Assembly (NCBI GenBank): GCA_029783825.1
Contig: JAREIK010017160.1
Coordinates: 1-64,000 of the forward strand
Length of the DNA: 64,000 nucleotides
Origin: Sapria himalayana
Taxonomy: Eukaryota; Streptophyta; Magnoliopsida; Malpighiales; Rafflesiaceae
Reading direction: 5' to 3'
Position numbers and translations under genes: made by a program. Positions 422 through 57,505 of this stretch are shown piece by piece (position 1 is the stretch's first letter; every line of letters begins with the position of its first letter). The notes below the pieces were generated by a model that saw only the letters and a list, made by a program, of their open reading frames with translations, did no database searches and was not told the DNA's origin.

Positions 422-813
422 TCAATAAAATGAATGAAAATTGATGAAATCACAAGAAACTTTATATATATGTGTATGTATTTTTGGGCACGTGTATATA
501 TATATATACACACACACACAGCAATGGGTCATGATAAGGCACCTTTTCTTCCATTCTATTTTATAATCGCTCTGCTCGGTGAAATTGATGAAGACACAAA
601 TATGAAGAAATAGATCGGGATTCTTTAGGTTATTGACGACCCAAGAAAAGGGTATTTCCAATTTAGGTTCGACCCCTTGAACACGTATAAGCTTAATTTC
701 AGACGTAGCTGGTGAGCAGTCAAGTGCGACTGAGTCCTGATATGAACTCCCTATCTCTTGTTCCTCTTTTCCTCTAGTATTGCAGTTACCGTGCCTTTCC
801 ATTGGCGATGCAA
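422..813 (-). CDS. ATG5: ATG5 exon 8 (C-terminal ubiquitin-like region), no stop at the usual end
   Basis: Begins after the acceptor CTTCTTCCAAG|TTGCATC. It encodes an acidic/serine-rich linker, then SEIKLIRVQGVEPKLEIP, then FSWVVNNLKNPDLFLHICVF, the hallmark C terminus of plant ATG5. Family members normally stop within a few to about a dozen residues after HICV. Here the frame stays open roughly 50 more residues, through a (CA)n/(TA)n microsatellite, to a stop at 422. Either the native stop was lost or the terminus is extended. A TIR element starts only about 17 bp upstream of the acceptor. Confidence 0.85.
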
Positions 814-829
814 CTTGGAAGAAGCATTG

Positions 830-1665
830 TTAGGGCCTCGCGCAGTGTCAAGTAAGAGTGTTTGATAAACATTGAAAATTTTCAAACCTTTGAAAATAAA
901 AATTTTCAATAGTTTTATTTTTTCAATATGAAAATATTCAAACCATTGATAAACCATTAATCCCTAAAATAAAAATTTTATGGATCACTTAATGAAATTT
1001 TAAATAAAAAACCATTCAAAATATGAGTATGTAGAGACCTACTTGTAATTGAATACAAAAAATTTCAATAAAATTTTTTGATTTAAGCTGACCATTTTGT
1101 ACTTTTTTTTTACCTTCATTTTTATTTTCTCATTCACGTTACAGTTCAATTTGTGAATCTGTATTCTTCTCCTCTTTTCTTCTCCACCACCACAAACCCT
1201 AATCCTCTTTTTATTATTAATTTAAGAGAGAAAATAAAAATTAACTAGTGATCAATAACTTTTATTTTTATATTATAGTTTGATGGTTTTAAAAAAATTT
1301 AGATTCTATTGATTATTTTTTAAAATATTTTTCAATTTTTAGAAATTATGATTTACTTATGAATATATTTCTAGTGATATTTTTTATATAATAATTAATA
1401 ATTATAGTGAAGAATAAAATATTATTAGAAACTCTATCTATTTTTGATTATGTGTAACACAATGATAATAAGAATGAATATGTAAAATACATAATTTTCA
1501 ATATTCAACATTTATAGTTGTCAAAAAATATTTCTTAGTATTCAATTGTCAGTAACTTATCAAACAGTTTTACAATACAAATTCAACACTTATAAAATTC
1601 AATACTTTATTTTTTTAGTATTTATTTTTCCATACTTAATTTTTTATTTATCAAACAAACCCTAA
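830..1665. mobile_element. TIR element, copy A (family of 2,424-3,123)
   Basis: The left end TTAGGGCCT...GTTTGATAAAC is mirrored by the right end TTTATCAAACAAACCCTAA. The interior (TCATTTAC-type lead, a CTTCTCCTC tract, then AT-rich) is shared in the same order with copy B about 1.5 kb away. No transposase is present, so it is non-autonomous. No convincing target duplication was found. Confidence 0.6.
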
Positions 1666-2423
1666 ATCTCAGAAGGATCATAACGAAAAATAATACTTCA
1701 CCAAATCAAGGGTAGAATTTTAATAATTTCACTAGAGATTTTTTTTTTTGAAAAAGTCAAAAATACCCTTGTACAGAAAATTTTAATGTTTTTGCATTTT
1801 CATGTTATCCAAAAATACTAGATAAATTGTGTATTTTATAATTGGATAAACATGTGTGGTCAATTTTATTTATTTTATAATATACTTATTTTCACACAAG
1901 ATAAATTATGCATTCACGACTCGATGCGAGTAACATCATATTGAGTTTCATTATATAATCTCATTCAATATCATATACGTTGAATCGGTCCGCCACATAT
2001 TCTACTACATTTACATTACCACTCCTAAATTTTTTAATATTTTAATTAAATTTATTCTTTATTATTTTATGAAAAATTTAAAAATAAAAAAAAATGATAT
2101 ATTTAGAAAATGATTATTCGTATACATCTTGAGCAGTCATAAAAAAAATTACCAGGTACATAAGCTCATATCTGATTACTTCTCAATTATGTCCTCATAT
2201 CTTTAAATATGTCAAATCGAATGAGTCACTACTCAATGCAGACTATCGCGTACCATATTAACCTTGAGTAAGTTTTTCTAACTAATATATCTCATGCTCT
2301 ATGATCAAAATGTCTTATAATTTGGGTAAATTATTCTAGACTTCACAAGAGATAGGTGACCAAAATGAGAATTCACGAAAAATAATCCACCACACTCAAA
2401 AATATAAAATACATCTTACAAAG
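1666..2423. other. AT-rich intron sequence
   Basis: Nothing recognisable between the two TIR elements. Confidence 0.4.
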
Positions 2424-3123
2424 GAACTATTTGGTAACGCACTTTGAATCTTCAAATTATTAAATATTAAAAATTCAACGGTTTGAATTTTTAAGTGCAT
2501 TTTAAAAAATATTGGAGCTAAAATTTTAAAATTTTAAGTAAAAATTCATTAAAATTTCCAATTTATCCTTTTTTTATTATTTTTCATTTTCTCATTTACA
2601 TTACAGTTTAATTTTAATCTGTCTTCTCCTCCTACTTTCTCCGCCACTAGAAATCCTAGCACTAATTCTCTTTCATATTAATTTAAGAAAAAAAATAACA
2701 ACAACTAATTGTTCGTTATTTTTATTTTTATATTAAATATTTAAATAATTTTAAAAAGTTTAGCTTGTATTTGTTATTTTTAATTAATTTTATTTCTTTT
2801 ATTTATAATTTATTATTAATATATTTTAGGAATTTTAATTTCTTTAATAATTAATAATTATAGTAAAAAAATAATTTCATTCAAATTTTATTTATGTTTA
2901 ATAATATGTAATACAATGATGATAAGAGTAAATATGTAAAATATATCATTTTCAGCATTCAACATTTACCGTTATCAAATAATATATGTATATGCATTAT
3001 ATAATTAACAGTAATTTATCAAACAATTTTTCAATACAAAATCACCACTTATAAAATTTAATCTTAATTTTAACAATTAATTTTCAGCACTTAATTTTTT
3101 AGTTTTATCAAATAGATCCTAAA
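2424..3123. mobile_element. TIR element, copy B
   Basis: The left end AACTATTTGGTAACGC pairs with the right end TTTATCAAATAGATCCTAA. The interior matches copy A in order and orientation: a CTCATTTACATTACAGTTTAA-like lead, a TCTTCTCCTCC tract, a TATGTAAAATATAT tract and a CAGCATTCAAC tract. Non-autonomous. Confidence 0.6.
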
Positions 3124-7131: not shown

Positions 7132-7257
7132 CTCTTTGCACCTCAATAAGTCAGTTCACATAGGACAGTTTCTCCCAATCATCAAGCTTTGCTATATCAT
7201 CCAGGTCTTCAAAATCCTAACCAACACTATAAACATACAGCCTAACTGGAATTTTTC
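7132..7257 (-). pseudogene. ATG5: ATG5 exon 6 with two in-frame stop codons
   Basis: 126 nt between the acceptor CTTGACAG|GA and the donor AAAGAG|GTACAC. The frame reads GKIPVRLYVYSVG, stop (TAG), DFEDLDDIAKLDDWEKLSYVN, stop (TGA), LIEVQR. It aligns with the second ubiquitin-like region of plant ATG5 (RIPVRLYVRS, then D-F-x-L-E-D, then SY-[IL]-NRP-[IV]-E). The second stop sits where NRP is expected (TGACTT against CGACCT), so two C-to-T steps explain it. The Arg expected after LYV is Tyr. Splice sites remain intact. Confidence 0.85.
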
Positions 7258-10862: not shown

Positions 10863-12990
10863 ATGGCACATTCACAATCTAGCACTTGTAGCAGTAGTGT
10901 TACTAGCACAAGAATCAGGCCCAATGCAATTATTGTAAAAAGCTTTTTGTGGGTAAATCATCCTATGGTACGTCGCATTTGAAGCAACATTTTAATAGGT
11001 GTCCAAGAAGAAAATCAACTGGGAGTGACATAAGGCAAATGATTTTGAAAAGTGATTCGAATGGAAATGATAATTCTGGACATTCAGGTGCATTTAATGA
11101 AAAACAGGGAATAGAGAAAATAGCAAAGATGATTATTCTTCATGACTATCCTCTTTCGATGGTGGAGCATAAAGGATTTAGAGATTTCACAACTATTATT
11201 CAACCTCTTTTCAAGTGTCCTTGCCGTAATACTGTGAAGAAGCATATCTTGACCATTTACGGGGAAGAGAGGGATAAAGTCATGAAGTTGATCGAGAATA
11301 ATGATAGTAGAGTTGCTATTACAACGGACATTAAGATTCTAGTAACCAAAAAAGGGATTTCATGTCTGTTACAACACATTTCATTGATAAATTTTGGACA
11401 TTACATAGTCTAATCCTGAGGTATAACAAATTAACATGTTCTTTCATAAATTAAGTATATATATATCTTTATTCATTGTTTACTTTATTGATAATTTTGT
11501 TATTTTTTCAGGTTTATTAATGTCTCTTGCCCTCATACAAGTGATGTGCTAACAGAGGTGTTGATAGATGCTATGCTGGGGTGGAATGTGGACTCAAGGA
11601 TATCCGCTATTACAGTGGATAATTGCTCTACTAATAATAGCATGATTGGTAAGATAAAAGAAAAATTGAGTGTTGATTGCTTATTGAATGACGGGTCTTT
11701 ACTTCATATGCGTTGTGCTGCACATATCTTGAACCTTATTGTTATGATTGGTTTAGATGTGATCAAGCATGTCATTGATAATGTCAGGGACAGTATAGTT
11801 TTTTGGACAGCATCTCCAAAAAGAATAGAAATGTTTGAGGATGTTTGTAGACAAATGAAAGTTCCTTGTACTAGAAGATTGGGTTTGGATTGTCCAACAA
11901 GGTGTAACTCCACTTATCTAATGCTAAAAACTGCTTTGGCTTATAAAAATGTGTTTCCTAGACTTAAGTTGTTTGAGTCACACTTTGTGCTTGTGCCTAG
12001 TGAAGCAGAATGAGAGACTGCGAAGGATGTTTGTGATAGGTTGGAGTTGTTCTATAATGTCACTGAGTTATTTTCTGGGACAAGATATCCCACAGCCAAT
12101 ATGTTTTTTCCTGTGATTTGCAGAATTAAAATGACATTGAATGAATGGTTCATATCATCCAATGTAGTAATTAGTACAATGGAAAAGAGTATGATTGCAA
12201 AATTTGATACATATTGGAATGTGATCCATAAATTGATGGGTGTTGCTTTAGTATTGGACCCTAGGTATAAGATGACTTTGCTACACTTTTACTTTCCTTT
12301 GGTTTATCCAAATGACTTTAGTGAACAAATTAGCAACATTCAACGACTTTGTTATGAGTTGATGGAGGAATATTATACAAGAATGTTTAAAGGAACAAAT
12401 ACAGAATATGCAGTACATGGAACGGTCACTTCAACTTCAAAAGAGAGTTCAATAACTATCGATAGTAATTATCAATTGTTTGTGAAAAGGATGAAGACTA
12501 ATAAAACTAATAGTTTCAGAACTGAATTGGACCATTACTTGGAAGAAGATGTTTTGCCTGAAAATTCTCAGTTTGATATTTTATTATGGTGGAAAGTTGA
12601 ATGGGGTAAAGTATCCTGTCTTGCAAATTATTGCAAGAGACATATTAGCAATTCCAGTATCTACTGTTGCTTCAGAGTCTGCATTCAGTTCTAGTGGGAG
12701 ATTAGTTAGCCCTCATCGTAATCGACTTAATCCGAAGATGATAGAAGCATTGATGTGTGCTCAAAGTTGGTTGTGGAGTGAAGTGACAAAACATGATGGT
12801 AAATTTATTTCATTGATTATTTATTTTTTATTTACCTATAATTACATAATATTTGTAAAATTTTAATATTATTTTTCTTTTTATATTTTTTTTTCTTGGT
12901 GGAGATGACTTGTTCATTTCAGATGGTTATGCATCAATTTATGAAGAAGATATTAACGTGCATGATGAATGTATTAAATTTTATAACTAA
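10863..12990 (+). pseudogene. hAT transposase (BED finger, RNase H-like core, dimerisation domain), broken
   Basis: Order of parts: MAHSQSSTCSSS leader; a half BED zinc finger (CNYCKKLF, then HLKQHFNRC at 10,925-11,010); the hAT core (ILHDYPLSMVEHKGFRDF, VAITTDI, ITVDNCSTNN, MRCAAHILNLIV); LELFYNVTELFSGT, VLDPRYKMTLL; and the C-terminal dimerisation motif (ARDILAIPVSTVASESAFS). Exons run 10,863-11,420, 11,512-12,798 and 12,923-12,990, with GT-AG introns at 11,421-11,511 and 12,799-12,922. Lesions: the first half of the BED finger is deleted with a frame change near 10,918, there is a frameshift near 11,335, a TGA (Trp expected) at 12,011, and a frameshift near 12,598. It cannot make active transposase. 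Confidence 0.92.
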
Positions 12991-15393: not shown

Positions 15394-15550
15394 GATATGT
15401 CAATTGGGACAGATAGACCAAGGCAAGGCCCAAGGCACGGCCCAAGGCACGGCCCAATTCAGCAGTACCTAGCATGGCCCGGGATGCTAATTCAAAACCA
15501 TGTCAAGATATGCTGTAGGCTGTGCTTGGCATGGTTAAATATTGATCCCT
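15394..15550. repeat. GGCACGGCAC-family MITE fragment
   Basis: Starts with AGATATGTCAATTGGGAC, a decayed TAGAGGTGTCAA-type end. Tandem AAGGCACGGCCC units and GGCATGG motifs follow. The right end is unclear. Confidence 0.45.
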
Positions 15551-18794: not shown

Positions 18795-18882
18795 CATGTT
18801 TCACAGAGTTCCAGAGCTCCAATTGATCTGATTGAGACATATGCATAACATTTTTGCAGTTTTCATTTATTATGTAGTCAGC
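18795..18882 (-). CDS. ATG5: ATG5 exon 4 (helical region)
   Basis: 88 nt between the acceptor TTTTGCAG|GC and the donor AAACATG|GTATTT. It encodes ADYIINENCKNVMHMSQSDQ followed by LELWNSVKH and a split Gly codon. This is the helix-rich linker of ATG5, whose plant consensus is roughly NVMNMSQSDQ followed by LWxSVMxG. Reading frame and splice phase follow from exon 3, joining as SLKE-ADYI. No disabling change is visible. Confidence 0.9.
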
Positions 18883-22560: not shown

Positions 22561-23840
22561 GCGCAAAGATTTCTAGGTGATTAGCTATCCCAGTAATATC
22601 CTTAAACAAATATTTTTAACTTCAAAATTTTTATAAGTTACAGTATATTAATGTTTGTGCAATTGTACTAATTATCTGACTATTAATATATTATATATAT
22701 TCTATGCAATCAATATAATTAGTTGATTACAAAATTATCTTTGGCAAGTTCACTCAAGCACAACTCCTTTATACCAAGGTATTGGAAAAAAGTCCTTCGG
22801 ACATGATGTGAGTGTAATATCAAAAAATTTAAAATAATACTTCATTTAGAATAACATAATGTAGTGTAGATTATATATCTTCTCTCTTACAGTAAAATTT
22901 CCTTCTAAATATTAGAGTTTGTTAAATTTTTTACTTATTTATTCTCAACTTACTCATCAACAATCCATTACTAGCCAAGTTAAAAAAATTATATCCTAAT
23001 ATTAATAATATTTCTATATTATAATATGCAATGTGTCGATTAAAAAAAAAATATCAGAGCTTCTTATCTTTCATGCCAACCAAATATAAATAGAAATTCA
23101 TTATATCCTATACACTCAAAAAAAAGGAACCTAATTGAGATAATCAAAAACAAATTAAATACTTAGTTATCTTTATTGATAATTAGTCACAATATATGTA
23201 AGCATTTCTTATTCATGATAAATCACATATACTTTTTATTTTTAAAATATTTCATAAAATAATTAAAATCAATTTAATAAAATTATCAAAAAAATAAGAA
23301 ATAAAAATGCATTATAATACATGTGAATCAAATTCAACACACATAATATGAATCATGAAATTATAACAGCAATGATATAAGTTGGCCCCTTGATAGAGTA
23401 GGACTACTAAAATACATGACCATGCTGAAATAAGTCAATATGAGATTATAACTTATTTGTTTAAGTCAATTTACTTAAAGATCAAGAAACATATAGATTG
23501 ATGTGTGGATGTTACATTTTAGAAATGTGTGTCATTATTGACACATCCTTTTAGTAAATTGCACATCCTTTTAGAAAATTGAGTGAAAAAAAACCAAATG
23601 GTTTTATAAAATGGGAGAGTTAAAACAAGATAAATAACAAAGAAACATTTATGTTGACCGCTAGAGGCACGAAACTTTTGACTGTGCTAGGTTTCAACTA
23701 AACCATTCAAAATCAAAAGTATTTTTTCTACTCAACAATAAGTAACATCTTTGCACTTTGTTTAATTATATTCACTTGGATAATTGGTTAGTTCCTAGTC
23801 CCAAACAAGATTCAGATATGAAATTTACTGGATCTATAAC
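22561..23840. other. AT-rich intron sequence
   Basis: Nothing recognised before the GATA array begins. Confidence 0.4.
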
Positions 23841-25112
23841 AAGATAGACATATAGAAAGAAAGATAGTTAAATAGATAGATGGATGGATATATAGATAGA
23901 TATATAGACATATAAATAGGTAGATAAATAAGTAGATAGGTAGATAGACAAATAAATAAATAGATTAATATATAGATAAATAAATAGATAGGCAGACAGG
24001 TCAATATTCAGATATATAAAAAGATCGATAGACAAGTAGAAAGATCAATATTCAGATAGAAATATAGATAGAAAGATAGTGAAATTGACAGATAAACAAA
24101 TAGATAGATAGACAAATAGATAGATAAATAAACACGTAGACATATAGATGGATAGATAGATAAACAGATAGATAGTCAAAAAAATATATAGAGATATAGA
24201 CAAATAGACAGACAGACAGATATATATATATATATATATATAGTTAGATAAATAGATTGTCAGATAGAAATATTGATAGATAGACAAATAGATGGATAGA
24301 GATATAGAAAGATATATAGATAGGTAAATAAACAGATTGATATATAGACTGATAAAGTGCTAGACAGATCGACAAATAGGTAGACAGATTGATTGATTGA
24401 TTGATTGATCTATTGACAAATATGTAGAAAGATATATAAAAAGATAGATAGATATAAAGATAGCCAGATAAATAAATAGATAGGTAGATATACAAAAAGA
24501 AAGACAGATAGATATATAGAATTATAGATAGACAGAAAGATATATAGATAGATAGATAGGCAGATAGACAAATAGAGAGATAGAAAGAGATAAATAGACA
24601 AATCAATAGAGCGGTAGATAGGTAGATATAAAAATAGATAGATATACAAATAGTAAGATTAGTAGATAGGTAGATAAAAAAATAGATAGATAGATAGATA
24701 GATAGTTTGATAGACAAATGGATAGATTGGCAGATAGATATATAGATAGGAAAATAGATAGATAGTTAGACATATAGACCAATAGATATATAGATAGATA
24801 AACTTATAGACTGATAGAATAATAGACTAATAGATAGAAGGATAGTTAGAAAGATAGATTGATTGATAAATAAATAGATAGATAAACACATAGTTATATA
24901 ATTAGATAGATAGATGGATAGCTAAACAAATAAATAGATAAAAAGATAGATAGATAGACACATCGACAAATATACATATAGGCTGATAGGCAGATAGAGA
25001 AATAAATAGATAGAATGATCAGATAGATAGACAGATAGTCATATAGACATATAAACAAATAGATAGATATGCAAATAGACAGATAAATAGATAGATATAA
25101 AAATAGATAGTC

Positions 25113-25153
<41 letters not shown>

Positions 25154-25532
25154 CTAATAGACTGAAAGATAGAAAGATTTATTGATAGATAGATAGAAAG
25201 ATTTATTGATAGATAGATAGAAAGATTTATTGATAGAAAGATAGTTAGATAGATATCAAGTTAGTTAGATAATTAGTTAGATAGATAGATTGTTAGATAG
25301 TTAGATAGATTGATAGATAAATACAAAGATAGACAGACAAACAGATAGATAGATAGACATATAGAAATTTACATATATAGATAGATAGATATATAAATAG
25401 ATAGACATATAAATAGATAAATAGATAGACATAGAGATATATAAACACATAGAATATAGATTAATAAATAGACAGATATATAGATAGACAAATAGATATA
25501 TAGATAGATAGATAGACATATAGATATATATA

Positions 25533-25566
<34 letters not shown>

Positions 25567-26648
25567 GATTGATAAAAATATAAACAAATAGATATATATA
25601 CATATAAATAGAAAGACAGATAGATAGATAAACATATAAACAAATAAATAGATATAAAGAAAGATAGAAAGACATAATTAATAGAAACATAGATAGATAG
25701 ATTAATAGTCTGATAAATTGATTGATAGATAGACAGATAGATAAATTGATAGATAAATAGATAGAGAGAAAAAGAGATTGGTAGATTGTATATATATAGA
25801 TAGATAGATAGACCAAAAGAATGAAAGTTGATATATTGATAGAAAGATAGACATATACACAAAAGGACAAATAGACAGATATATCAAAAGACAAATTGAC
25901 AGATAAATAGATAGTAAGATATAAAAATATATAAATATACATATTAATAGTCAGAAAAATAAACATTTAGATGGATAGATAGATAGACAAGTATGCAAAT
26001 ATATAAAAATAATGATATACAAATACATAGATATATAGGCAAATAGATAGATAGATAGATAGATAGACAGATAGACAAATAAGTAGATAGGTAGATAGAA
26101 GAATAGACAGATATATAGAACTATATATATATATAGTTAGATAGATAATTAGATTGGCAAATAAAGAGATTGGCAAATAAAGAGATTGGCAAATAAATAG
26201 ATACACATATAAACATATAGAGAGAAAGATAGATAGGCTGATAGATAGAAACATAGTTAGATAGACAGATAGATAGATATTTAGATAGATAGTTAGATAG
26301 ACAAATAGGCAAATATATAGAAAGAAAGATAGAAAAATCGATAGATTAATAGGAAAATAAATAGATAGATAGATAGGCAAATAGATAGATAGAAAGATAG
26401 GCAAATAGATAGATAGATTGCTAGACAAATAGGTTGATAGGTAGATAGATAGACAGATGGACAGATAGAGAGATATATAGTTAGATATATAATTAGATAG
26501 ATAAATAAATAGATTGGTAGATAGACATAAACACATATAAACATATAGATAGATAGATTGATTGATTGATAAAAACATAGGAAGATAATTAAATAGATAG
26601 ACAGATAGACAAACAGATAGACAGAAAGATAGATAAATATATAGATAG

Positions 26649-26696
<48 letters not shown>

Positions 26697-26878
26697 AAAT
26701 AGAAATATTGACAAATAGATAGATAGATAGACAGAAAGAAAGAGATTGATTGATAAATTGATTTCTACATAAATTGATAGATAGATAGATAGATAAAGAG
26801 ATAGATAGATATATAGGTAGATAGTTTGATAGATACATAGATATATTGACAAATTGACAAATATATTGATATATAGCT

Positions 26879-26921
<43 letters not shown>

Positions 26922-27251
26922 GATAAAAAGATAGGTTGATATAGTGATAAACAATTAGACAGATAGATAGATAGATAGATAGATAGAAATATATATAGTT
27001 TGATTAATAAATAAATAGATAGAAAGATAGATAGATAAATATTTATACAAACAGATAGATAGATAGATAGATAGACATATAAAAAAGTAGATATATAGAC
27101 AAATAGCCATATTGACATATATAAAGATGAATAGACAAAAATTAAAACTATTACATAGATAGATATATAAATAGATAAAGATATATAGGTTTACAATTAG
27201 ATAGATATATAAATAAATAGATAGCTTGATATACAGATAGATAGATGGACC

Positions 27252-27289
<38 letters not shown>

Positions 27290-30836: not shown

Positions 30837-31320
30837 CTTACATTGATTTTTGTAGTGTCTTATCTCTCTATAATTTCAATACTTAATGGTCTTTGAGTTA
30901 TTATAATTACAATGATTCTTAGATTTAGACCTCTTGTTTTTTGATCTGCTTTGAAGTTTTCTCTTGGTTGAATTTTTTACAATTAACTTTGTATATAATT
31001 CTAAAGAGGTTGATATTTCACTTATCTATCTCTGTTGAATCTCCTTGCTTAGAATTAGATCATGAAGATAATAAAATTTCAATTTATTAGTTCTTGATGA
31101 ACTATGCACAACTATAATTGTAATACATTAATATTTGATAGAGAACACTGAAGTATGAATACATATACTTCATCATTGACTTCAATACCAAACAAACATA
31201 ATTGGGTTGTGATTGTGTTGACTTCATTGAGTTGTTGGCTCATTGAAGTGATTTCTGTCAAATTTAGATTGAGAAAACACCTCATCATGTGCACTTTTGT
31301 AGCATCAATTAGTTTTCGTA
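30837..31320 (-). pseudogene. Ty1/copia gag fossil (UBN2 domain to zinc knuckle)
   Basis: The minus strand reads LNLTEITSMSQQLNEVNTIT then TQLCLFGIEVNDEVYVFIL, close to the copia gag pattern L-x-EG-x-S-x-x-x-HLNEFN-x-I, then QL-x-x-x-GI-x-x-x-DE. After frameshifts come LILSKEIQQR, SKNKRSKSKN and a decayed CCHC knuckle at 30,837-30,881 (Y, stop, NYREIRHYKNQCK, where CWNCG-x-x-GHYKNQC is expected). Pol is not recognisable downstream. Confidence 0.7.
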
Positions 31321-31798
31321 TATACTAGCAAGAGCCATCGTAAGCCTTACTATGCTCTTCTCATTTTTTTATATTGGAAGTAAGTTGATAAGATATCATA
31401 TTTCAGATGAATTCAAGTGCTAGTATGTGCTCTTCTTTATTCATAGACTCTATCATCTTCCTCAGAAGGGGTTGATATAGATTTTTTAGTATATATAATC
31501 TTCCATCTATATTATCTAGAATCCAAATTTTTTTGCATAAATTTTTTTTATTTTAACTTTTCCCTCATATGTAATCATTACTATCTACAAAATATGAATT
31601 CTTCTAGACAATTCTTGCAAAACACTATGCATAAGAATTGAGAACACCTCTTTTGACATGCTGATATTGTCTGCAAAATTTTTATTATTCATTAAATTCA
31701 TTATTATCATCAATAGTAACTTTGCCCAATGGTCCATCATAATGCACAACCTAAACCACCACTACCAATTGTTGAGAATAACTTGATTTCCTATTTGT
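31321..31798. other. Sequence between copia gag fossil and GATA array 2
   Basis: Moderately AT-rich. It may hold the copia 5' leader in minus orientation, but no primer site or LTR end was found. It meets the GATA array at CTATTTGTTA|GATAG. Confidence 0.35.
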
Positions 31799-32794
31799 TA
31801 GATAGACATTTAGATAAACTAACAAATATAAAGGTAACAGATAGAATGATTGATAGATAGATGATAGATATATTAATATATATAAATATATATAGAAAGA
31901 TTGACAAATAGGCTGATAAATATAAAGACGGTTAGATAGTTAGAGAGATAAAAAAATAGAAAGAAGATATATAGATAAATTGATAGATATAATAGTTAGA
32001 TAGTTACATAGATATATAGATTGGCATATAAACATTTTGACATAAAATCATTTAGAAAGAAGGATAAATAGATAGACAAACATATAGATAAACATATAGA
32101 TGAATACATAGATATACAAATAGATTGAAAGATATATTGATAGTCAGATTGATAGATAGTCTAATAGACTAATAAACTAATGGACTGGTAGATTGATAGA
32201 GAGGTAGATAGATAGATAGACAGATAGATAAATTAAAAATTAGAAAGACAAATAAATAGATAGATAGGTAGGTAGAGAGCTATATAGATAGATAGATAGA
32301 TATAAACATAGATAGATAGATAGACAAATAAGTAGATGTATATTAAGATAGATAGATAAACAGATAGATATATATTAGATAGACAAATAGATAGGTTAAT
32401 TGATAGAAATATAGATTGATTAATAAATAGATAGATATAAAGATAGATTGACATTTAGAAAGGTATATAGATAGAGAGATAAATAGTCATATATATAGAC
32501 AGATATATAAATAGATTATTAGACAGGTAGATAAAAAATAGATATAAACATAGATAGATAGATAGATACATAGATATAAAGATAGATTAATATACATATT
32601 TATAGAATGATAGATAGACATATTGATAGATAGATAGATTTATATAAGATTGATATACAAATTTATTGATAGAATGATCGACAAATTGATAGAGAGATTG
32701 ATAGACTATTTGATAGAAAGATTGATAAACATAGTGATAGATATATAAATAAATAGACAAACTTATGGAGAGTTAGATACTTACATACAAAGAT

Positions 32795-32830
<36 letters not shown>

Positions 32831-33040
32831 CTGATTGATTGAGTGATATATAGATAGATAGATAGATATACAGATAGATAGACAGAAATATAGATAGAAA
32901 ACAGACAAACAGATAGATATATAGATAAATAGACATATTGATAGATAGTTAGATAAACAAATATATAGATAAATAGATAGATAGATATATAGATAGACAA
33001 ATAGATAGACATATAGTAAGACAGATAGATAGACACATAG

Positions 33041-33075
<35 letters not shown>

Positions 33076-33686
33076 AATAGATATATAGATTGATAGATAA
33101 ATATATAGATTAATTGATTAATTGACAGATAGATATATAGATAGATAAATAAATATATAGATATATAGATAGATAGTTAGATAAACAACTATATTTAAAA
33201 ATATATAGATAGACAAATAGATAAACATATAGTTAGATAGATTGATAGACACATATATAGATAGATAGATATATATACAAATAGATAGATTGATAGATAA
33301 AAAAATAGATTGCTAGATAGATTTATTGACTGATAGATATATAGATAGATAAATAGATAGAGACATAGATAAAAAATTGATAGATATATAGATAGATAGA
33401 GACATAGATAAAAAAATTGATAGATATATAGATAGATAGAAAGATAAATAGATAGTTAGATAGAAAGAAGATAGATAAATAGATATATTGATAGATATAT
33501 AGATAGACAAATAGATAGATAGACAGACAAATAGACAGACAAACAGATATATATATATATATTGATAGATAGTTAGATAGATATATATATTGATAGATAG
33601 TTAGATAAACAAATATATACACAAATAGATAGATAGATATATAGATAGAAAAATAGATAGACATATAGTAAGACAGATAGACACAT

Positions 33687-33720
<34 letters not shown>

Positions 33721-33929
33721 GAATAGATTGATTGATTGATAGATAGATAGATAAATATATAGATTTATTGATTGATTTACAGATAGATATATAGATAGAT
33801 AATTAGATAGATAAGTAGATAGATAGTTAGATAAACAAATATATAGAAAAATAGATGATAGATATATAGAAAGACAAATAAATAGTCAAATAGATATGCA
33901 TATAGTTAGATAGATTGATAGACACATAG

Positions 33930-33970
<41 letters not shown>

Positions 33971-34880
33971 AATAGATAGATAGATAGATAGATAAGTAGA
34001 TTGATTGATTGACAGATAGATATATATATATATATATATAAATAAATAGATAGATAGATAGAGATAAAAAATTTGATAGATATATAGATAGATAGATAAA
34101 TAAATAAATAGATAGAGAGATAAATAAATAGATAGAGAGATAAATAGATAGTTAGATAGAAACATAGATAGATAAATAGATATATTAATAGATATATAGA
34201 CAAATAGATAGATTGATTGATTGACATATAGATAGATATATAGACATATAGATAGAGAGATAGATTGACAGATAGATAGATATATAGATAAGTAGATAGA
34301 TAGATAGATAGATAGACATAAAAATAGATAGATAAATATATTGATATGTAGATAGACTGATAGATAGATAGATAGATAGATAAAAAGATAGATAGAATGA
34401 TAGACATATAGATAGACAGATTAATAGACAAAATAATAGATAGATTAATAATTTGTATCAATATATAGATTTAAAGAAGATTGATAGACAAATTGATAGA
34501 GAGAATGATAGACAGATTGAAAGACAAATTGAATGACAGATAGATAGACAAATAGATAGACAAATTGATAAAAATATAGATAAACAGATAGATAGACAGA
34601 TAGAAAGATAGATATATAAAAAGATTAATAGACAAATAGATTGAAAAATAGATTGACAGATAGATAGACATATAGATAGATAAAAATATATTCGGATATA
34701 TAGACATATAAATAGATAGAAAGATATACTAATAAATAAACAGATATATAGATAGAAAGATAGATGGAAAGATAGATAGACATTTAGATATAAAGATAGA
34801 TTGATTGATTGATTGATTGATTGATAGATAGATAGATAAAAAAATAAATAGATAGATAGAAAAATAGATACATAGATAGA

Positions 34881-34912
<32 letters not shown>

Positions 34913-36073
34913 TTGATATACAAATATATAGATAAATATAAAGAAAGATTAATAGATAAATAGATATATAGATAGTCAGATTGATAATTTGTTTGAAAGT
35001 TAGATTGATAGACATATTGATATATAGTTTGATAGCCAAATTGATACACATATTAATAAACAATTTGGTAAATATATTTAAAGATAGATATATTGATAGA
35101 ATTATAAATATATAGATAGACAGATAAATAGACATTTTGATAAATAGATAGATAGACAGATAGATGAAAAATAAATAAATATATATATAGATAAATAGAT
35201 TGATAGACAAATAAATAGGCAAAAAAATAGAAAAAAAAAAGAAGAAAAGTTTGATAGATAAACATATAGATATATAGAGAGATTGAAAGATAGATTGACA
35301 GATAAATAGTCAGCTAAATAGACACATAAATAGATAGATCGATTGATCGATAGATAAATAGTTAGATAGATAGTAATATAGAACTATAGACCAATAGACA
35401 AATAGATAATTATATAGATTGATTGATTGATTGATAGGCAGATAGACAGTCAAATAGACAAATAGTAATATGGGAATATATACAGATAGATAAATAGATA
35501 TGTATATAGATTGATTGATTGATAGTCAGATATGCATATAGATAAATAAACAGATAGACAGACAGATAGGCAGGTAAATAATTAGAGAGATAGATATATA
35601 GATAGATAGCCAGAAACATAGATATATAGATAGACAGATTAATAGACATAATAATCGACGGATTTCTAGATAGATTGATAGAGAGATTGATAGACAGCTT
35701 GATAGACATATTGATAGATAGATTGATAGGTAGAATGTAAAACTGATTGAAAGACTAATAGATAGATAGATAGATAGTCAAATTGATTAAAAGGTAGATA
35801 GATAAATAATATAGAGAGATAAATAGATAGATTATTAGTCAAATAGATTGATAGATAAATTGAGAGATAGATTGAAAAATAGATAGATAGATAGATAGAT
35901 ATATAGTCATATAGATAGACATATAGATATATTGAAAAATAAATAGAATGATAGACAGATAAATATACTAATAGATAGACTGAAAGATAGACAGACACAC
36001 AGATAGATAGATAAATAGATTGATAAATAGATAAAAAGATAGTTAGAATGATAGATAGATAAATAGATAGATA

Positions 36074-36104
<31 letters not shown>

Positions 36105-36946
36105 GATAGATAGATAGATAGAAACATACATAGCCAAATCGATAGGAAAATATATAAATAGATTAAAAATTATATAGGCAAATAGATAGTCAGATTGATA
36201 ATTAGATTGAAAGATAGATTGAAAGTCATATTTATAGCCAAATTGATAGCTAAATTGTTAGACAGATTGATAGGCAAATTGGTAGAGAGATTGTTAGATA
36301 TATTTATATACAGAAATATATACATATGGATATTCATTTATATAGATAGATAGATAGATAAATAGGTAAAAAATAGTTTTGATAGATAGATAGACAGATA
36401 GACAGAAATATAGATAGAAAAATAGACCGATGGATAGATAGATAGAGATAAAGATATACAAAAAAATAGACCGATAGATAGACAGATAAATAGATACATA
36501 GAAAGATAGATAGATTGATTGATTGATAAATAGATAGATAGATAGACAAGAAAAAGATAGACAGATAGATAGATAGACATACAAATAGACATATAGATAG
36601 ATAGACAAAGTGGAAGACATATTGAAAGAAAGATAAATAGACGAATAAACTAATAGATAGAGAAACATATAGATAGACATATAGATAGGTAGATATACAA
36701 ATAGAAAGAAAAATAAATAGATAGACAAAATGATAGATAGATAGATATATTTATAATTAAAAAACATATAGACATATAAATAGATAGACATATCTAAAGA
36801 AAGACAAATGGATAGTAAGATAGACATGTAGATTGATAGGTAGATAGACAAAAGATAGATATACATATATTTATATAGACAGATAGTTAGATAGACAGAT
36901 AAATAAATAGATAGAAAACTAGTTATATAGATATATTGACAGACAA

Positions 36947-36983
<37 letters not shown>

Positions 36984-39482
36984 CAGACATATAGATAAAT
37001 TGATAAGTAGATAGATTGATTGATAAATAGATAAATAGATAGATTGATAAACATATAGATAGAAAGATACACAAACATATATATAGACAGGTAGATAGAC
37101 TAATAGATTCATAGATATACATAGATATAAAAAAACAGATATACAGATAGATAGACAAACAATTAGATAAATACATAGACAAAAATTATATAGATAGATA
37201 GACATATAGATAGATTGACAGATAGACAGATACATAGATATATATACATACAAATAGATAATCAGATAGACAAAGCAATAGATAGAGAGATAGTAGATAT
37301 ATAGATAGTAAGATAAATAGACTGACAGATAGTTAGACAAATAGACCGACAAATACATATATAGATAGATTGACAGACAGATAGACACACAGAAAGATAG
37401 ACAGAGATACTTATACACATTCAAATAGATAGATAGACAAATATATAGATAGATAGATAATTAGCTTTATAGATAGAGATACAAATATACTAATAAATAG
37501 ATAGATAGACTGATATATAGATAGATAGATATATAGAGAGTTTTAAAGATAAATTGATAGATAGATAGATAGACATAATGATACATAAATAGATAAATAG
37601 ATAGATATTCAGATACATAAATAGGTAGATATACAAATAGATAGAATGATAGATAGATAGGTAGATAGATAGACAGATCAGATAGATATATAGATAGATA
37701 GATAGCTAGTCAGATTAATAGGCATAAAGATAGACATATATGATAAATAGATAAACAAATAGATTGATAGATAAATAGATAGATTGATTGATTTATTGAT
37801 ATATAGAGAAATAGACAAATAGATATATAGACAATTAGATAGATAAATAGATAGATAGATTAACAATTAATGAAATAGATAGACAGAAAGATAGATAGAT
37901 AATTAGATAAATAGATACGTAGATAGACAAGTAGATAACATACATATTGATTAACAAATATACAGACAAATAAATAAACTGTTAAATAAATAGATAGACA
38001 AATAAATACATATATAGTTAGATATATAGATATATAGATATATAGAAAAATAGGTAGTTTATTAGATAGATATATAGAGAGAAATATTGATTTATTTATA
38101 GTTCAGAGATATATAGATAGATTGATAAATTGATTGATAGAAAGATAAATAGACAAATAAATCAACACATAGATAGATACAAAGATAGAAATATAGATAG
38201 ATATATAGATAGATAGATAGATAGAAAGATAGATAGATAGATAGGCTGAACGATCGACATAAAAATAGCATGATAAATAGACTAATAGATAGGCAGATAA
38301 ATAGACAGATCTATAAACATATAGATAGATAGATAGAAATATAGATAGATTTATAGATAAATAGATAGATAGATAGACAAATAGATACAAAAATTGATAA
38401 TTTGACTGATATATTGATGGATAGACATAATGATATGCATATTAATAGACAAATTGATTGGCAGATTGATATATAGATTGATAGACAAATAGTTAGATAG
38501 ATTGATAGACAAATATATAGATAAATATATAGAGATATAGAAAGAATAGACAAATAAATAGACAGATAGAGAGATATGGATATTGAGATATAGATAGATA
38601 GATAGATAGATAGAAATATAGAAAGATATATAGACAGACAGATAGATTGATTGAAAGATATAGAAATTCATAAACAAATCGATAGTCAGATAGTTAGATC
38701 AAGAGATAAATAGAAAGATAAATAGATATATATATTGACAGACAGATAGAGAGGTAGATATACTGACAGATAAACAAATAGGTAGAAAGAAATATATATA
38801 GATAAATAGATAAATTGAGACACAAATAGACATATAGTTAGATAGACAGATAGACAGACAGATTGATTGATTGATAGATAATTAGTCAGGTTATTATATA
38901 GATAGATATACATATTGATTGAATTATTAATAGATAGATAGAGAGACAGATTGATAATTTGATTAAGAACTAGATATAAAAAAAGATGAATAGATAGATA
39001 AATAAATAGATAGACAAATAGACAAAAAGATAGACAGACATCTGATAGACATACAAATAGATAGATAGATAGATAGCTAGCTAGATAGACAGATAGACAG
39101 ACAGCCAGACAGACAGACAGACAGATAGATAGATATACATATACATAGATAGATAAATATAAAGATAGATAAATAGAAAAATACTTAGATAGATAGATAG
39201 TAAGTTGGATAATTTGATTGATAGTAAGATTGATAAACAGATTAATATATAGATTGATAGATAGATTGATATACAAATTGAAAGATAAACAGATTAATAG
39301 ACATATATATAGATAGATAGATAGATAGAAAAATAGACTTATAGATAGATAGTTAGATAGACAGATAGATAAATTATTAAACATTAAATAGATAAATTGA
39401 TATATAGATAAACAGACATATAAATATATAGATAGATAAAAAGATATACAGATAGATATTTAGATAGATATATTGATTGATG
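31799..39482 (+). repeat. Degenerate (GATA)n array 2, 7.7 kb
   Basis: Same strand and composition as array 1. (TA)n and (CA)n blocks occur at 33,042-33,075, 33,690-33,720, 33,930-33,970 and 36,074-36,092. A segmental duplication of ~0.65 kb is readable: the series GACATATAGTAAGACAGATA, (TA)n, ATTGACAGATAGATATATAG, TTAGATAAACAA occurs from about 33,007 and again from about 33,660. Together with array 1 this is roughly 11.3 kb of GATA-type DNA. Confidence 0.95.
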
Positions 39483-40425
39483 GAATAATTACTTATTATA
39501 TATCTATACACAAAATAATTTACTATGCATGATCAATGTGCTTTGATAATGTCTGGTATTTAATAAAACACATTGAGACAATTTTGCACAATGTTGTTTC
39601 CCTACTTACAATAATGTATAGTATACTTGGGTTCTTAGCCTTCTACACTCCCATTTCTCTATTAAGTGTGCTTTGATTCTACATGCCAATATTAAATAGA
39701 TATAATAAAGTCTTAGTGTATTTATTTATTTTCAATAGTACTATTAAACAAAAAATTAATATTAGGCTAATTGAATTAAATAAAGCATATACAATCTTAA
39801 CAGAATAGAATTATTATAGAATTTATTGGATACCTAATTAAAGTCTAAAAAATATGATTATTTAAGAAAAAAAACTAAATAAAATTCATCATCATTCACC
39901 AACAAAAATTACAGCATCAAAGAACTACCAACATGAGCAATGTCAACAAAATTAAAGGTTATGGTTAAGCTGTACCTTATTCTTTGAGAAAAATTTAAGA
40001 TTTTCAAACTATAACCATAGAAACCTAATTAGTAGATAAATTTCCACAAGTTCTTTATATTCATCTTCTCTACATGACAAAAATTCTAAAATATAAAAAA
40101 CCATTAATTAAAATATAAGATATAACTTGAATTTAAAAAATTACAGTACCTTTCTCTTATTCTCCTCTTGTTTTTTTCTTCGTCCTCTTTTACAATTCTT
40201 CTTCAAATTTCAAAGCTAGCACAATTTCTATTGATTTGAAATCCATTAAACGTTTTAAAAAAATCATTAAAATAAAATAAGTTCACACTACCAATTTATC
40301 ATTAACATAGGACTCAACAAAAAAGCACCATTTAACTCACTACCAATTTTAAATTTCCAAAACTCACTACAAATTACTCATTAAATTATACTGAAAATAA
40401 ACAAAAAACATGTAGAGAGTGAGAG
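39483..40425. other. AT-rich intron sequence
   Basis: Nothing recognised. Confidence 0.4.
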
Positions 40426-40545
40426 AGAGATGTTCTTTGTTTGATATGGATCTTCAAAATGATGTTGCGACGGTAATGTGTTCAAAGAGATGTTCTTTGT
40501 TTGATATAGTTCTTTGAAAGGATGTTGCGATGCCTGTGTGTTCTG
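40426..40545 (+). repeat. 60-bp tandem duplication
   Basis: GAGATGTTCTTTGTTTGATA recurs at exactly 60-bp spacing, with GATGTTGCGA in each copy. Confidence 0.85.
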
Positions 40546-43500
40546 AGAGTCAGAGGTTTTTTAGAAGTGAACAGACCTAATTATGTAGAGATGGCTAGAA
40601 GGGGGAGAGATGGTTTAGAGACAAAAAATATTAGAAAACAAAATTATTTTTTATTCGACCATTAATTATATTATATACTAAATAAATAAATTTATGGTTA
40701 ATAGATTATGAAATTTTTATGGTTATTTTTTATATTAGTATTTAAAATTTAATCAAATCAATTTCAGAAATAAAAAAAATTAATTTATGGTTATTTATTA
40801 AAAAAACATAATATTTTATATAACTATTGATAAATTGTATAAATGTATATCCATACAAAATTTATAACATCACAATTAAATAAAAAATAAATAACCAAGT
40901 AAAAATGAATAAGTAACTTATCAATAATATTCAAACAACTAATAAAATATCTGACCATAAAAATAAAAATCTATAATCTTAACATTATCCAAAAAAATAA
41001 AATTAAAAATTAATTACTTACAAATATAACTTACAAAAATAAGACAAAAAATAGATCTAAAAAAAAAAAAAAAGACAAAAGCAACCAAATTTCAACTTGT
41101 ATATTACTATAACAAATGATTTTAGATAATTTTTTAATAGCTATTTCAATATTTTAAAAAAACAAGAAGAATATCTAAAGCAAATAATAATTTTCTATAC
41201 TATGATTATTAACATTTGAGATTTTGAGTTAATAAACATACATCTAAGTTAAAAGATGAGTTACAAAACTATAGTAAATAACAAATGATAAGTATCAACA
41301 ACAATTTTTTTTTAAATATTTGTTTACTTCTTTAAAGTAAGTATCATGATAGAGGAGCTCTATGAAGACACCTAAATGACATTGATAATTGACTTGTCTC
41401 CCTCAATACCCAATAATACTCTCGGCCTCATTCATAAATAAAACTACTAATATTTCTCTATGATATATCATTTCTTCATATGATATATACATTATAGAGA
41501 TAATCTATTGTGTATGCATACAAGCATCATATTGCACATCACTATTCTAATAGTTTCACATTTATATTAAAGTTTAAACTTTTATATATAATGACATATG
41601 ATTATATAAATGTATAAGTGTTAAGATATAATGTTGTGTTTAAAATACTTTTTTAAATGCTACACACATATATATATATGTAACACTTTTATAAATATTA
41701 TATAGTATATATATCACGAATTATATAAACATTATAAATATTATATATTTATATAAAAATTTATATGTTATATAAATATTTATTAAAATGTATAAATATT
41801 TTATATGTTATATAAATGTTATATAAACTATTATATAAATAGATAGTATTATGTAAATGTTGTATAAATATTTATAAACATTTATACATATGTATAAATA
41901 TTTATATATAACATTATTTGTTTATATAAACATATCAATGTTTATATATAATGTTACACATTTATATATATTTAAGTATAAACATTTATATATAATGTCA
42001 TATGTTTATATAAATGTTTAAATGTTTATATATAATGTTGTGTTTATAATATTTATATAAATATTATATTACTACAAATTAGGCATACTGCTATCCAAAA
42101 TAGTATACCTCTCATGCTATAGTGTTTTTGAAAATAGATTTTTTTGTTTTAATTTTTTCATTTTTTTTTTCAAAACATGAAATATACATGAGGAATAAAA
42201 TTATTTTGAGTTTACTAGAATGTATAAATCTTTTATTTTCATGTATATTTTAATATGAGTATTTACTTATTTAGGTACTTTATAAAAAAATATTATTCTA
42301 ATTCACCATTACATAATTTTTCCTATGTCTAATAACATCCAGCAACAATAAAAAATATTTTCAAACAATATTAAACTAGCAAAAAAAAATTTACTAATCA
42401 GCATCACCATTAGTAGCTTATATTTTATATTTAATTTAGGATGGTTTTTTGTTTACATGAAGAAAATTAATTTTTTCCTTAATTATATCAAAATTAAGGA
42501 GGTTGTGAAAAAAAACATGACCAATATCAAATTTAATGAATTTGATTTTATCATGATTATAAAATATCAACAATTCTTTCACTAATTATGAAATATTCTT
42601 GATTATATGAGTATTCTAATTTGGGTTGGATATAAGTTTTAAGCAAAAGATTAACAATTCTTTAAATATTATCTCTTGATAAAATAAAAATTTATTATAT
42701 TTTAACATTACACGAAGTCAACTTGAAAATTTATGTATCACACCCTGAGTAGGTATTCACTTGCAAGCTAAGCAAAAAAGATCTAGGTTGAGTATTTTCA
42801 GCCTACTAAATCAATGTGAGCAACCAAACTTTCTGAGATATTAGTTTTTCCTATCTTAATTGCCAATTAAACTCACTGAGTTAAAACTTCCATCACTTGT
42901 AAACCCTTTTGAATCATACACCAGAAAATATATGATTTTCTTTTAATAAAATTATTCATGAATAAATAAAACATATTGTGTTAGACTATAATTTACATAA
43001 TAAGATTTAAAAGAATACTGACATTTAATCCTATGCATTATTTTTCTACATTATGATGATATTCATGTATAGTCATCATATGTGTCAATAGGTACAAATT
43101 TGTTAATTTTAGAGAGAGCAAAGTTCCTTAGAAGAGAAAATCTCATTCGAATCTAGAAGACAAATAACTTACGAGTCCATTTAGTTTAAATTTATAATAA
43201 ATTAGATTCTAGGATAGATGACCACCCAAGGGTCAGGACTTGGGACTTACACTAGTAGGATGTGACATGCACATGTTCAAACATAAATAAGTCTACTAAT
43301 GAGCTAAATGAGCTAAACTTCTGATCTACACATCTGATCACTCTTCAAAAAAAAAAAGAAAAATTATAATCATCACTTGATCTCAGATGTATTATTGTAT
43401 ACACGTCTTCTCTTTTCCCTCACTTCTTGAACTACTTTTCCAAACAATATTAAGATACCCTAATCTTATTCTAGAGTCATTATTTCATTCAAGAATATAC

Positions 43501-47294: not shown

Positions 47295-47384
47295 CTCTTT
47301 CAATGAATTTATGAAGCTCCATTTAACTGACTCTTCACCTTCGCAAGGGACCAACAAATCACTTGGATATCCTCTAAAATGAAC
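47295..47384 (-). CDS. ATG5: ATG5 exon 3 (contains the ATG12-acceptor lysine)
   Basis: Exactly 30 codons between a good acceptor (TTTTTTCAG|GTTC) and the donor GAG|GTTGGT. The peptide begins VHFRGYPSDLLVPCEGEE and ends WSFINSLKE. It matches the plant ATG5 stretch that follows PWNLT. By family alignment the Lys of SLKE is the residue that forms the isopeptide bond with the ATG12 C-terminal glycine, and it is retained. No stop or frameshift is seen. The flanking introns are about 9.9 kb upstream and 28.4 kb downstream. Confidence 0.9.
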
Positions 47385-51560: not shown

Positions 51561-51659
51561 ATTGAAGAGAGATGTTTAGGTTTGGCATATCTTTTTAAAT
51601 TATTATTTATTTCATTTGTTTTTTTATTGTTTGAGAACTCAACTTGTGAGCTTCCACAA

Positions 51660-51701
<42 letters not shown>

Positions 51702-51806: not shown

Positions 51807-53327
51807 AAAAGTAGTATTAAACAATAACAATGATGAGATAAAATATAATCAAACTATCAAACAAGCTTCCCTCACTGTTCTTAATTAATCTAAAGTGATA
51901 TTTAAACAAATAATACAAATAAGTTTCAAACAACCAAATAAAATATTTTTCTATTATTTCAACTAAAGAGCATACCATTATTAAAGCAAAACTGGTCACC
52001 ATGAGATATTTTCGTATTACTTTCTCATATCATTTTTTGTCTAGACATCTTTTTAATTCGACAAACTTGCTGCATTTTGAATTTATAATCAACAATAAAC
52101 TTCCTCTTATCCCATTCTAGCCATATCAACAATAAAATCTAACAACATCAGTTTAAGCACAAGAAAATTTAATAGGAAGCTCATGAGAACTACTTGAAAA
52201 TTTAGAAAATCATTGAAATATGATAATTATACCTATGACATATCAATCAACAATGTAACGATAATATGGTAGCAAAAAAATTAGTTTTTGAAATTATATA
52301 AGGGAGTATAATAACAAATGTAATTAACAGATGGAGAAAAAAAAAGAATTTTTTTTAAAAATTATTGAAACAATCAGAATCAACTCATACTTCAGAGGAA
52401 CGTAAATAATTTTTAATCATGAGTCACAAAAGCAAAATAATCCAAAACAAAACAAGGATGCTCATTACACATGTCAAATCAACACCCAGGAGAGCATAAT
52501 TTGTAACATTCTATCATAGCTCCTGCTTGCCACTAAATTTTACCAAATAACACATTTGAGACTCAAATTTGGTCATAACACAAATCATTAGGAGTTAGGA
52601 CCACCAATTTGCTCTTGTAGTCATTTTGTGAATGAGTAAGGATATAACTCACTTGAGGCAAGGAAAAGAACATATGATTTCTTATATCAAGAAATACATT
52701 TTTGTCGGATACTCTATTACTCACAATGGGTATGGGCATTACCCACCAAATGACTATATGATCATTACATGTATGGACATGATATTCTTAATGAATTAAT
52801 CATTTTCAATGACTCGATCTAATAGAATTGACATTCAAACACCATGATAAAAGAATCATTTTTATGTTTAATTTTTACTAATCATGAAGTGGTAACCATT
52901 GCCCCTACCAATGCGACTATATCTGATACGACAAGCATAGCTAATTTTGAAAAGTAATGATACTTTTATTCTTGATATTAGCAAAAAAAGAAATCTTGTT
53001 TGTGTCCCATATGATGCGAGATATGAATCTTGCTAGAACGAAGAAGAATTTGAAAAATTATTTATCTCAACCTAAAAAAATATACCACATGGATACATCT
53101 TAAGCCTTCCCAAAGTCTACTGTCCTAACCGTTACTCTAGTTCAAAGTAATGACTTAAACCTTATAATTATTTTATAATAAGAACATAAAGTATGATCTA
53201 CACAACACTCATTACCACAAATATTCTTTTATTTTCATTTTAATACTGCATATTCTAATTTTTTGTCATCTTTTGATAGTTGCAAGATTTGATATAATTT
53301 TTAAGATATTTAATTTATTCAGGATGA
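51807..53327. other. AT-rich intron sequence
   Basis: Nothing recognised. Searched specifically for the missing ATG5 exon 2 without success. Confidence 0.4.
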
Positions 53328-53335
53328 AGGAAAAG

Positions 53336-55505: not shown

Positions 55506-55514
55506 TACAACTTC

Positions 55515-55766: not shown

Positions 55767-55769
55767 CTT

Positions 55770-56010
55770 GAAGGGTTCCTTAATGTAATGAAAGTTTGAT
55801 TTTTTTAGCTTATTATATTTATTTTTTTGTTTTAGTCAGAATGGAAGCATCCAACATATAAGCTGCTCCAACTTGAATATGTAGATCTTATTGTGATTTT
55901 TAAATTTTAGAATTAATGATAATCAAATCATTTTCCACCTCTCTCCTCTACACTCTTTTCTCATCTCTCTCTCTCTCCCTCTCCTTTTTCCCAAAACCCT
56001 AGAAGTGTTA
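55770..56010 (+). mobile_element. LTR-like fragment D
   Basis: CCAACATATAAGCTGCTCC, a long CTCTCTCC tract and AAAACCCTAGAAG, in the same order as LTR-like fragments A and B. It directly adjoins the MITE. Confidence 0.4.
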
Positions 56011-57275
56011 GGCTTGAATAGTGATTGATTAAATTAAAATTATGTATTTGTTGTATACGGTGTATTTTGATAATCTATTTATATGATCAAATATTTTTGT
56101 TTTAATATTTGCTTGTAAGTACATGGAAGAAAATATTAAGAAGTTAGAAATACAGCAGTAATATAATAATGGAGGTCAGTGAGCAGAAAAAATTTTTGGA
56201 GTAGAGTCTTACCTGTCTGATAATCCGACCCGCTCCGATTAATTAAACCAAACAATTTTTAATATAAAATATTTTGTATTTTATTTTTTTGGGTTATTGT
56301 TTTTACAATCTAGAACTGTTCAGCTTCTCTCTCTCTTTCTTTGCACTATTTATCGCGACTGCTTCTGTGTTGCACATACTGGAAGACTTCTGATTTTAGT
56401 TTAATATGTAACGCATAATCATTTTTTGGTAAATGTAGCTAGTCATGCTGAGCGACTAGAGAACCACGTTATTTCATACATTTCTATTATGGTTTCTGTT
56501 TTGTTTTTATTATCTAATACTTGAATTGTGGATTGGGTATATATCATTTATTATTTTTATTATTTTTTCTTCTTCTGTATCTTAAAATCACAACTGTTGA
56601 AGCGCAATTGCCCAACAGTATTGAATATTTCAACATATATGATATATTGTGGCTTTATGTATTTTTATATATTAATGATGTACTTAAACTTTATGTATTC
56701 CTTATTTATGTATGACGAGACCTGCGAGCTTGGGTTGCTTCAAAGTATTGATACTTAAGATTAACATATTTGTAGTTATCAGTTTATTGGACTCATCAAT
56801 GTATTTGCACTTATCATCAAAAAAATTATATTTGCATAAATATCATAACATGCAAAATAGTTATAGGGCTCTATCTGTCTACGCCAACTCCTAATTTTTA
56901 AATAGCTTTCAACAAGATTGTTTTGTGCTTCATTTTTGTTCAATAGTTATCGGCAAGATTTTTTTTGTTTGAACAATATGACAAAAAATTAAATACAATT
57001 GTTTACACATATAACTCAACCAAATTCCAAATACGCTAGGAAATAATATTGTTTTATTCCTAATACACAATAGTAATTATTTTCACTCTTCCCACTTTAC
57101 CTTTTATTTCACTTTTATTTCTCCATCAAGAGATTTTGAGCAACAATTAAGAAAAGAATAGAATGACAACGAGAATTGTGTAGCTTTTCAATCGTCGAGC
57201 GGAAAAGTAAAATAAACAAAAAAATAACAGTCCTCTAGTAAGTTCCTAAGCTTGGATGCAATAAAAGTCTGCGAC
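56011..57275. other. ATG5 intron 1 proximal part
   Basis: AT-rich. A minus-strand ATCAGACAG|GTAAGACT at about 56,216 looks like a splice donor, but no coding sequence precedes it. No gene recognised. Confidence 0.35.
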
Positions 57276-57281
57276 AATTAC

Positions 57282-57505
57282 CATTTTAAGGGCAAGCCGT
57301 TGTAGTCAAACCAGACAGCACCCTGTACAGGAGGCAGCGCCGATGACAAATAAAGTTTTATCGAGAGAAGAAGAAGAGGCAGGTATCCTATGCGAGGCGC
57401 TAGGATGTGGACTGGAGGAGGCGGTGGAAGGACCGTCACTTCAGACTCGTGGAGGTGAACTTGAAGAGGAATCGCACCTTCCCAGACGTACTTCATTGCC
57501 TCCAT
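57282..57505 (-). CDS. ATG5: ATG5 exon 1 (start codon and first ubiquitin-like region)
   Basis: Open from ATG at 57,505 for 74 codons plus TG. The split Trp codon is followed by the donor TG|GTAATT. The peptide starts MEAMKYVWEGAIPLQVHLH and continues through LAPRIGYLPLL to WFDYNGLPLKW, all hallmarks of the plant ATG5 N terminus. Exon length and phase agree with the plant gene. No disabling change is visible. The start is chosen because MEAMKYVWEG aligns with the known N terminus (family pattern M-x-x-x-VKYVWEGAIPLQ). The next exon should begin with YIPTGV, and I could not find it. Confidence 0.93.

Follow-up and report, generated by a model that had tools for sequence, protein, structure and literature searches.

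The window analysed here, the whole stretch of 64,000 nucleotides from contig C16961 of Sapria himalayana, has a mean GC content of 27.3% and contains the remains of an ATG5 gene. A tblastn search with the Arabidopsis ATG5 protein yielded five exon-sized matches on the minus strand, which represent exons 1, 3, 4, 6, and 7 in this order and bear out the arrangement proposed in an initial annotation of this DNA. Exon 1 (57282-57505; E 1.4e-29) consists of an open frame with start codon and GT donor; it encodes the Pfam UblA domain (PF20638, E 8e-15) and also matches solved ATG5 structures (E 2.7e-8). Exons 3 (47295-47384; E 2.4e-12) and 4 (18795-18882; E 1.3e-10) are likewise open and flanked by AG and GT borders, and all three exons are thus as clean as initially described. 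The damage noticed in the last two exons could be located precisely: exon 6 (7132-7257; E 8.4e-9) keeps its borders and carries two in-frame stops (TAG at 7219-7217 and TGA at 7153-7151), while exon 7 (561-857; E 5.8e-15) has lost its splice acceptor by a 2-base deletion, is frameshifted near position 791, and lacks one further base near its 3' end. The exons are separated by 6.3 to 28.4 kb, which indicates that the introns have been retained. Of the claim of a giant intron, the length of 28.4 kb holds for the intron between exons 3 and 4 of the window (47294-18883), whereas the usual intron 3 of the gene measures about 9 kb.

Exon 2, already missed in the initial annotation, is indeed absent from the window, and the same applies to exon 5; the best ungapped scores for both were far below the respective self-matches and fell at scattered places. 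From the exon phases, a direct junction of exons 1 and 3 would shift the reading frame, while skipping exon 5 alone would preserve it. In ATG5 isoforms deposited for Durio and Theobroma (P0001, P0005), the stretch corresponding to exon 5 is missing without a frame change, and going by these records, exon 5 appears to be skippable in other plants. As judged from its sequence, the copy in the window cannot encode ATG5, because exons 2 and 5 are absent, exon 6 contains stops, and exon 7 has lost both its acceptor and its frame.

Losses and extra sequence in the window copy

A comparison with contig C15495, which carries another copy, suggests how exon 2 disappeared. The exon consists of 67 bases and has been removed exactly between its splice borders, leaving the acceptor of intron 1 fused straight to the donor of intron 2 (52230-52233, minus strand). 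C15495 has the motif GGTA at either border of the exon, and one of the two is left in the window, which points to a deletion between these short splice-border repeats as the likely route of loss. This exact loss is confined to the window among the 36 places of the assembly matched by a DNA probe of 311 bases that spans exon 2 of C15495. The four places with matches about 40 bases short, on C7725, C11881, C2991 (124621), and C12853, were read directly and have a different deletion in common, which removed the acceptor together with the first half of the exon. At the other 31 places exon 2 is covered by the match ranges, with C15495 and C2608 read directly; at two of these 31, the match exceeds the probe length by about 39 bases.

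Two further large changes distinguish the window from C15495. The length of intron 3 is due to about 19.7 kb (23366-43036) at a place where C15495 has about 0.4 kb, and a segment of about 18.3-18.7 kb including exon 5, which is kept in C15495, C5507, and C12872, is missing at a junction at 15530-15539. The distance between exons 3 and 4 is 9.0-9.4 kb in the 11 other contigs in which both exons were matched side by side, including C2608. The extra sequence in intron 3 is common to the window and C5507 and holds two degenerate AGAT arrays with strong GC skew, at 23842-27455 (3.6 kb) and 31839-39481 (7.6 kb); among the copies compared, C5507 is the only one aligning in this region, with 99.0-99.9% identity. 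Pieces of mobile elements were also encountered. Remnants of a hAT transposase lie on the plus strand within an ATG5 intron (10907-12866), where pieces of the BED finger, the RNase-H domain, and the dimerisation domain each occupy an open frame of their own, and a zf-RVT (reverse-transcriptase zinc-binding) retroelement piece is located upstream of exon 1 (60700-61242).

ATG5 copies across the assembly

The search for other ATG5 copies called for in the initial annotation was run on the window's own assembly (2.06 Gb in 18,497 contigs). With a plant ATG5 protein (P0003) as query, 179 first-look candidates were obtained, and all 111 of those scored proved to be exon matches (E of 9.2e-9 or lower). 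The genome-wide tally from this search and the exon 2 probe covers exons 1, 2, 3, 4, 6, and 7 on 51 contigs and amounts to 35 matches for exon 1 (some of them partial), 35 for exon 2 plus the scar in the window, 31 for exon 3, 17 each for exons 4 and 6, and 11 for exon 7; the UblB family of ATG5 was found at 11 places. The assumption that ATG5 is a single-copy gene therefore fails here, since exons 1 and 2 each occur about 35 times. Note that these numbers are partly too low, as the search missed exon 6 of the window and exons 4 and 6 of C5507, which were seen by local comparison, and that they may also be too high, as exon 7 of the window contig, C5507, and C13980 may be one sequence counted three times. 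These three contigs are identical over their first 2124 bases and nearly identical, gaps aside, up to about 4 kb, which could stem from overlap in the assembly or from an exchange that took place very recently.

Two other gene families of the pathway behave differently. The same exon-by-exon search for the ATG7 N-terminal family gave three matches, all in order over 86 kb on a single contig (C2121:299891-386177), and that for PF03987 (ATG3 and ATG10) gave three matches on two contigs. Each of the ATG7 matches carries a flagged internal stop, which may be intron read-through. The partner search suggested initially was thus successful for ATG7 and for the ATG3/ATG10 family, while ATG12 (PF04110) had no match among 11 candidates in the genome. 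None of these families gave a match in the 14 control genomes either, so that the negative result for ATG12 is uninformative. Redundancy of the whole assembly or general polyploidy would have multiplied ATG7 and PF03987 too, which argues against either as the source of the ATG5 amplification.

Alignments of the window with ten other contigs (about 10 kb fetched for six of them and 25-70 kb for four) gave identities of 92.4-100% per 2-kb bin, gaps aside, wherever the sequences align, introns included. C15495 aligns, with gaps, as far as the last base of the window, and the shared segment exceeds 64 kb in C15495. Because the homology runs through introns and flanks, the copies must be regarded as duplicated DNA segments rather than copied messages. 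Their arrangements are tandem, inverted, and scattered: exon 1 is repeated on the same strand of C3173, C2991, C3317, and C13332 with a spacing of 31.6-54.9 kb, and inverted pairs are present on C6773 and C343. Breakpoints of the duplications were not found in the stretches compared, and the ends of the duplicated unit lie beyond them. A transposon confined to exon 7 was considered and rejected, as the homology continues through exon 6, the introns, and beyond. A subtelomeric origin was likewise discarded. TTTAGGG arrays occur about 3.6 kb past exon 7 on C15495 (87062-87378), C12872 (24527-24680), and C12812 (23629-24195), and the last of these extends to the contig end; those of C15495 and C12872 are interstitial, since a long stretch of T and shared sequence resembling retroelements come after them, and no such arrays are present in the 3' flanks of C2608, C3173, and C12752.

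The identity between the window and C5507 changes repeatedly along the alignment, with values of 100% (bins from 1 to 4 kb), 95.7-96.5% (4-12 kb), 98.9-99.3% (12-16 kb), 96.8-98.2% (16-22 kb), 99.0-99.9% (22-46 kb), and 94.7-96.1% (46-52 kb). Such a mosaic would result from exchange between copies, but could also be produced by chimeric assembly.

The apparently whole copy on C2608 and the state of the others

Contig C2608 (422,668 bases) contains all seven ATG5 exons with canonical AG/GT borders, spread over 78 kb (exons 1-4 at 291653-291876, 296883-296949, 301312-301401, and 310416-310503; exons 5-7 at 318633-318773, 362648-362773, and 369724-370025). Intron 3 of this copy measures 9.0 kb and intron 5 reaches 43.9 kb. 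The exons join without any change to a protein of 345 amino acids, which scores 98.0, 85.3, and 64.4 bits for the UblA, helical bundle, and UblB domains (cut-offs 23, 21.3, and 20.4, respectively) and is most similar to ATG5 from Euphorbiaceae, with identities of 62.5% to Mercurialis, 60.8% to Ricinus, and 60.3% to Hevea. In a phylogenetic tree it falls among the rosids without a supported neighbour, on a branch of 0.88, and this long branch indicates that the evolution of ATG5 was probably fast in this lineage. The C2608 copy reads as whole and is likely to still supply the ATG5 function, and autophagy has probably not been lost in this plant. The loss of a central pathway gene, one of the two outcomes initially envisaged for the window, is thus unsupported, and the other, a degenerate duplicate with its introns retained, agrees with the data, at a copy number far above what had been proposed.

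Seven other copies, which were read in part, are all affected by lesions. C15495 shows stops in exons 6 and 7, C5784 a stop in exon 7 and a TGA within the exon 6 match, and C12812 stops in exon 7. C5507 and C13980 both combine a frameshift in exon 6 with the same exon 7 state as in the window. The acceptor of exon 7 is lost in C13219 and in C12872, the latter also having a frameshift in exon 4. On C3173 and C12752, of which exon 7 was read, this exon is open and preceded by an acceptor, and further whole copies of ATG5 besides that on C2608 are possible.

Over 270 codons, the window and C2608 differ by 13 nonsynonymous changes at 624.5 sites and 10 synonymous changes at 179.5 sites, corresponding to a dN/dS ratio of 0.36. 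A value of 0.37 was obtained for C2608 and C15495 (312 codons), while other pairs of copies range from 0.15 to 1.45 with few changes each. Since the ratio for the window and C2608 is 0.36 and not 1, decay was not neutral throughout on both sides, and some constraint appears to have acted, either on the side of C2608 or before the death of the window copy. The synonymous divergence near 0.06 suggests a recent origin.

Interpretation and comparison with known systems

The dead ATG5 copy in the window is real, and pathway loss is not supported by it. The window very probably represents a broken, intron-bearing ATG5, one of about 35 copies of exons 1 and 2 spread by segmental duplication, with the gene itself likely supplied by C2608. 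Its frame is disrupted, its introns are kept, and an intact relative is present in the same genome; moreover, high-identity homology extends through introns and flanking DNA, and the copy would best be read as an unprocessed, segmentally duplicated pseudogene whose parent gene still exists. Whole DNA segments carrying a gene tens of kilobases long would have been duplicated repeatedly through non-allelic recombination; the ATG5 copies would then have decayed in a mostly neutral manner, by deletions at microhomologies and large ones, by point mutations to stop codons, and by insertions into introns, with some exchange between them. Several points count against this reading: the same 2124-base start in three contigs means that some copies may be one sequence assembled repeatedly, chimeric assembly could account for the mosaic of identities, breakpoints of the duplications did not turn up, and the dN/dS ratio of the window against C2608 is below the value of 1.

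The first two of these points lead to the proposal that the copies are uncollapsed haplotypes or chimeric contigs derived from one or a few loci, for which the fragmentation of the assembly into 18,497 contigs would also speak. We consider such an artefact improbable, because some contigs carry several copies, as with the three exon 1 matches on C3173, because the lesions differ between copies, and because ATG7 and PF03987 are not multiplied. A complete loss of ATG5, with C2608 being either a recent promoter casualty or a consensus blended from several copies, would agree with the broken or incomplete state of the other copies read (C15495, C5507, C13980, C12872, C13219, C5784, and C12812) and with the long branch of the C2608 protein, but is quite improbable in view of seven intact exons out of seven with every splice border in place, dN/dS ratios of C2608 to other copies that are mostly below 1, and the presence of ATG7 and PF03987 genes.

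Spreading of ATG5 along with a transposable element that had captured it might be suspected from the dispersed copies of about 94-97% identity around exon 7; this appears very improbable, as the shared segment keeps introns and flank over more than 64 kb in C15495, and the pieces of hAT transposase and reverse transcriptase that it contains are remnants. More speculatively, ATG5 may have become a young macro-repeat, whose segments are still multiplying and exchanging and whose array is kept as it supplies or tunes ATG5 via several live copies or RNA from dead ones, a proposal which we regard as unlikely.

Returning to the segmentally duplicated pseudogene, the case has some wider implications. 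By sequence, ATG5 has been amplified in this genome into dozens of long, mostly partial copies beside at least one whole copy. Such an amplification is unusual, and in the resulting series of copies one can trace how an exon is lost precisely, how introns grow, and how duplicates exchange sequence. The precise removal of exon 2 between GGTA motifs implies that splice-border motifs could serve as microhomology for deletions. The case also calls for caution with giant-intron, duplication-rich genomes, where a dead core gene in one window may be one of dozens with a whole copy elsewhere. Among the open-licence papers listed, none dealt with ATG5 amplification or loss in holoparasitic or other parasitic plants, and the main text of the paper on the Sapria himalayana genome (PMC10246380) makes no use of the word autophagy.

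Plants usually carry ATG5 once or twice. In a legume survey, one ATG5 gene each is listed for Arabidopsis, Phaseolus, and Medicago, and two for Glycine (PMC8703869). The C2608 gene resembles plant ATG5 (At5g17290 and its orthologues) in its UblA, helical, and UblB domains and in its 62.5% identity to the Mercurialis protein, but differs from it by the many copies present here, compared to few elsewhere, and by introns of up to 43.9 kb. Long-intron genes are known from the holoparasite Sapria himalayana itself, and the genome paper describes low GC content, giant introns, and a genome near 2 Gb, as observed here (PMC10246380). The reported 1.92 Gb, 18,718 scaffolds, and 27.47% GC (PMC10246380) are close, but not equal, to the 2.06 Gb and 18,497 contigs of the assembly searched and to the 27.3% GC of the window. 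Finally, the ATG5 copies share with the unprocessed pseudogenes of segmental duplications their retained introns, shared flanks, high identity, and tandem and inverted neighbours, but are unlike the usual cases in that the parent is a core autophagy gene, the unit spans tens of kilobases, and about 35 exon copies are present.
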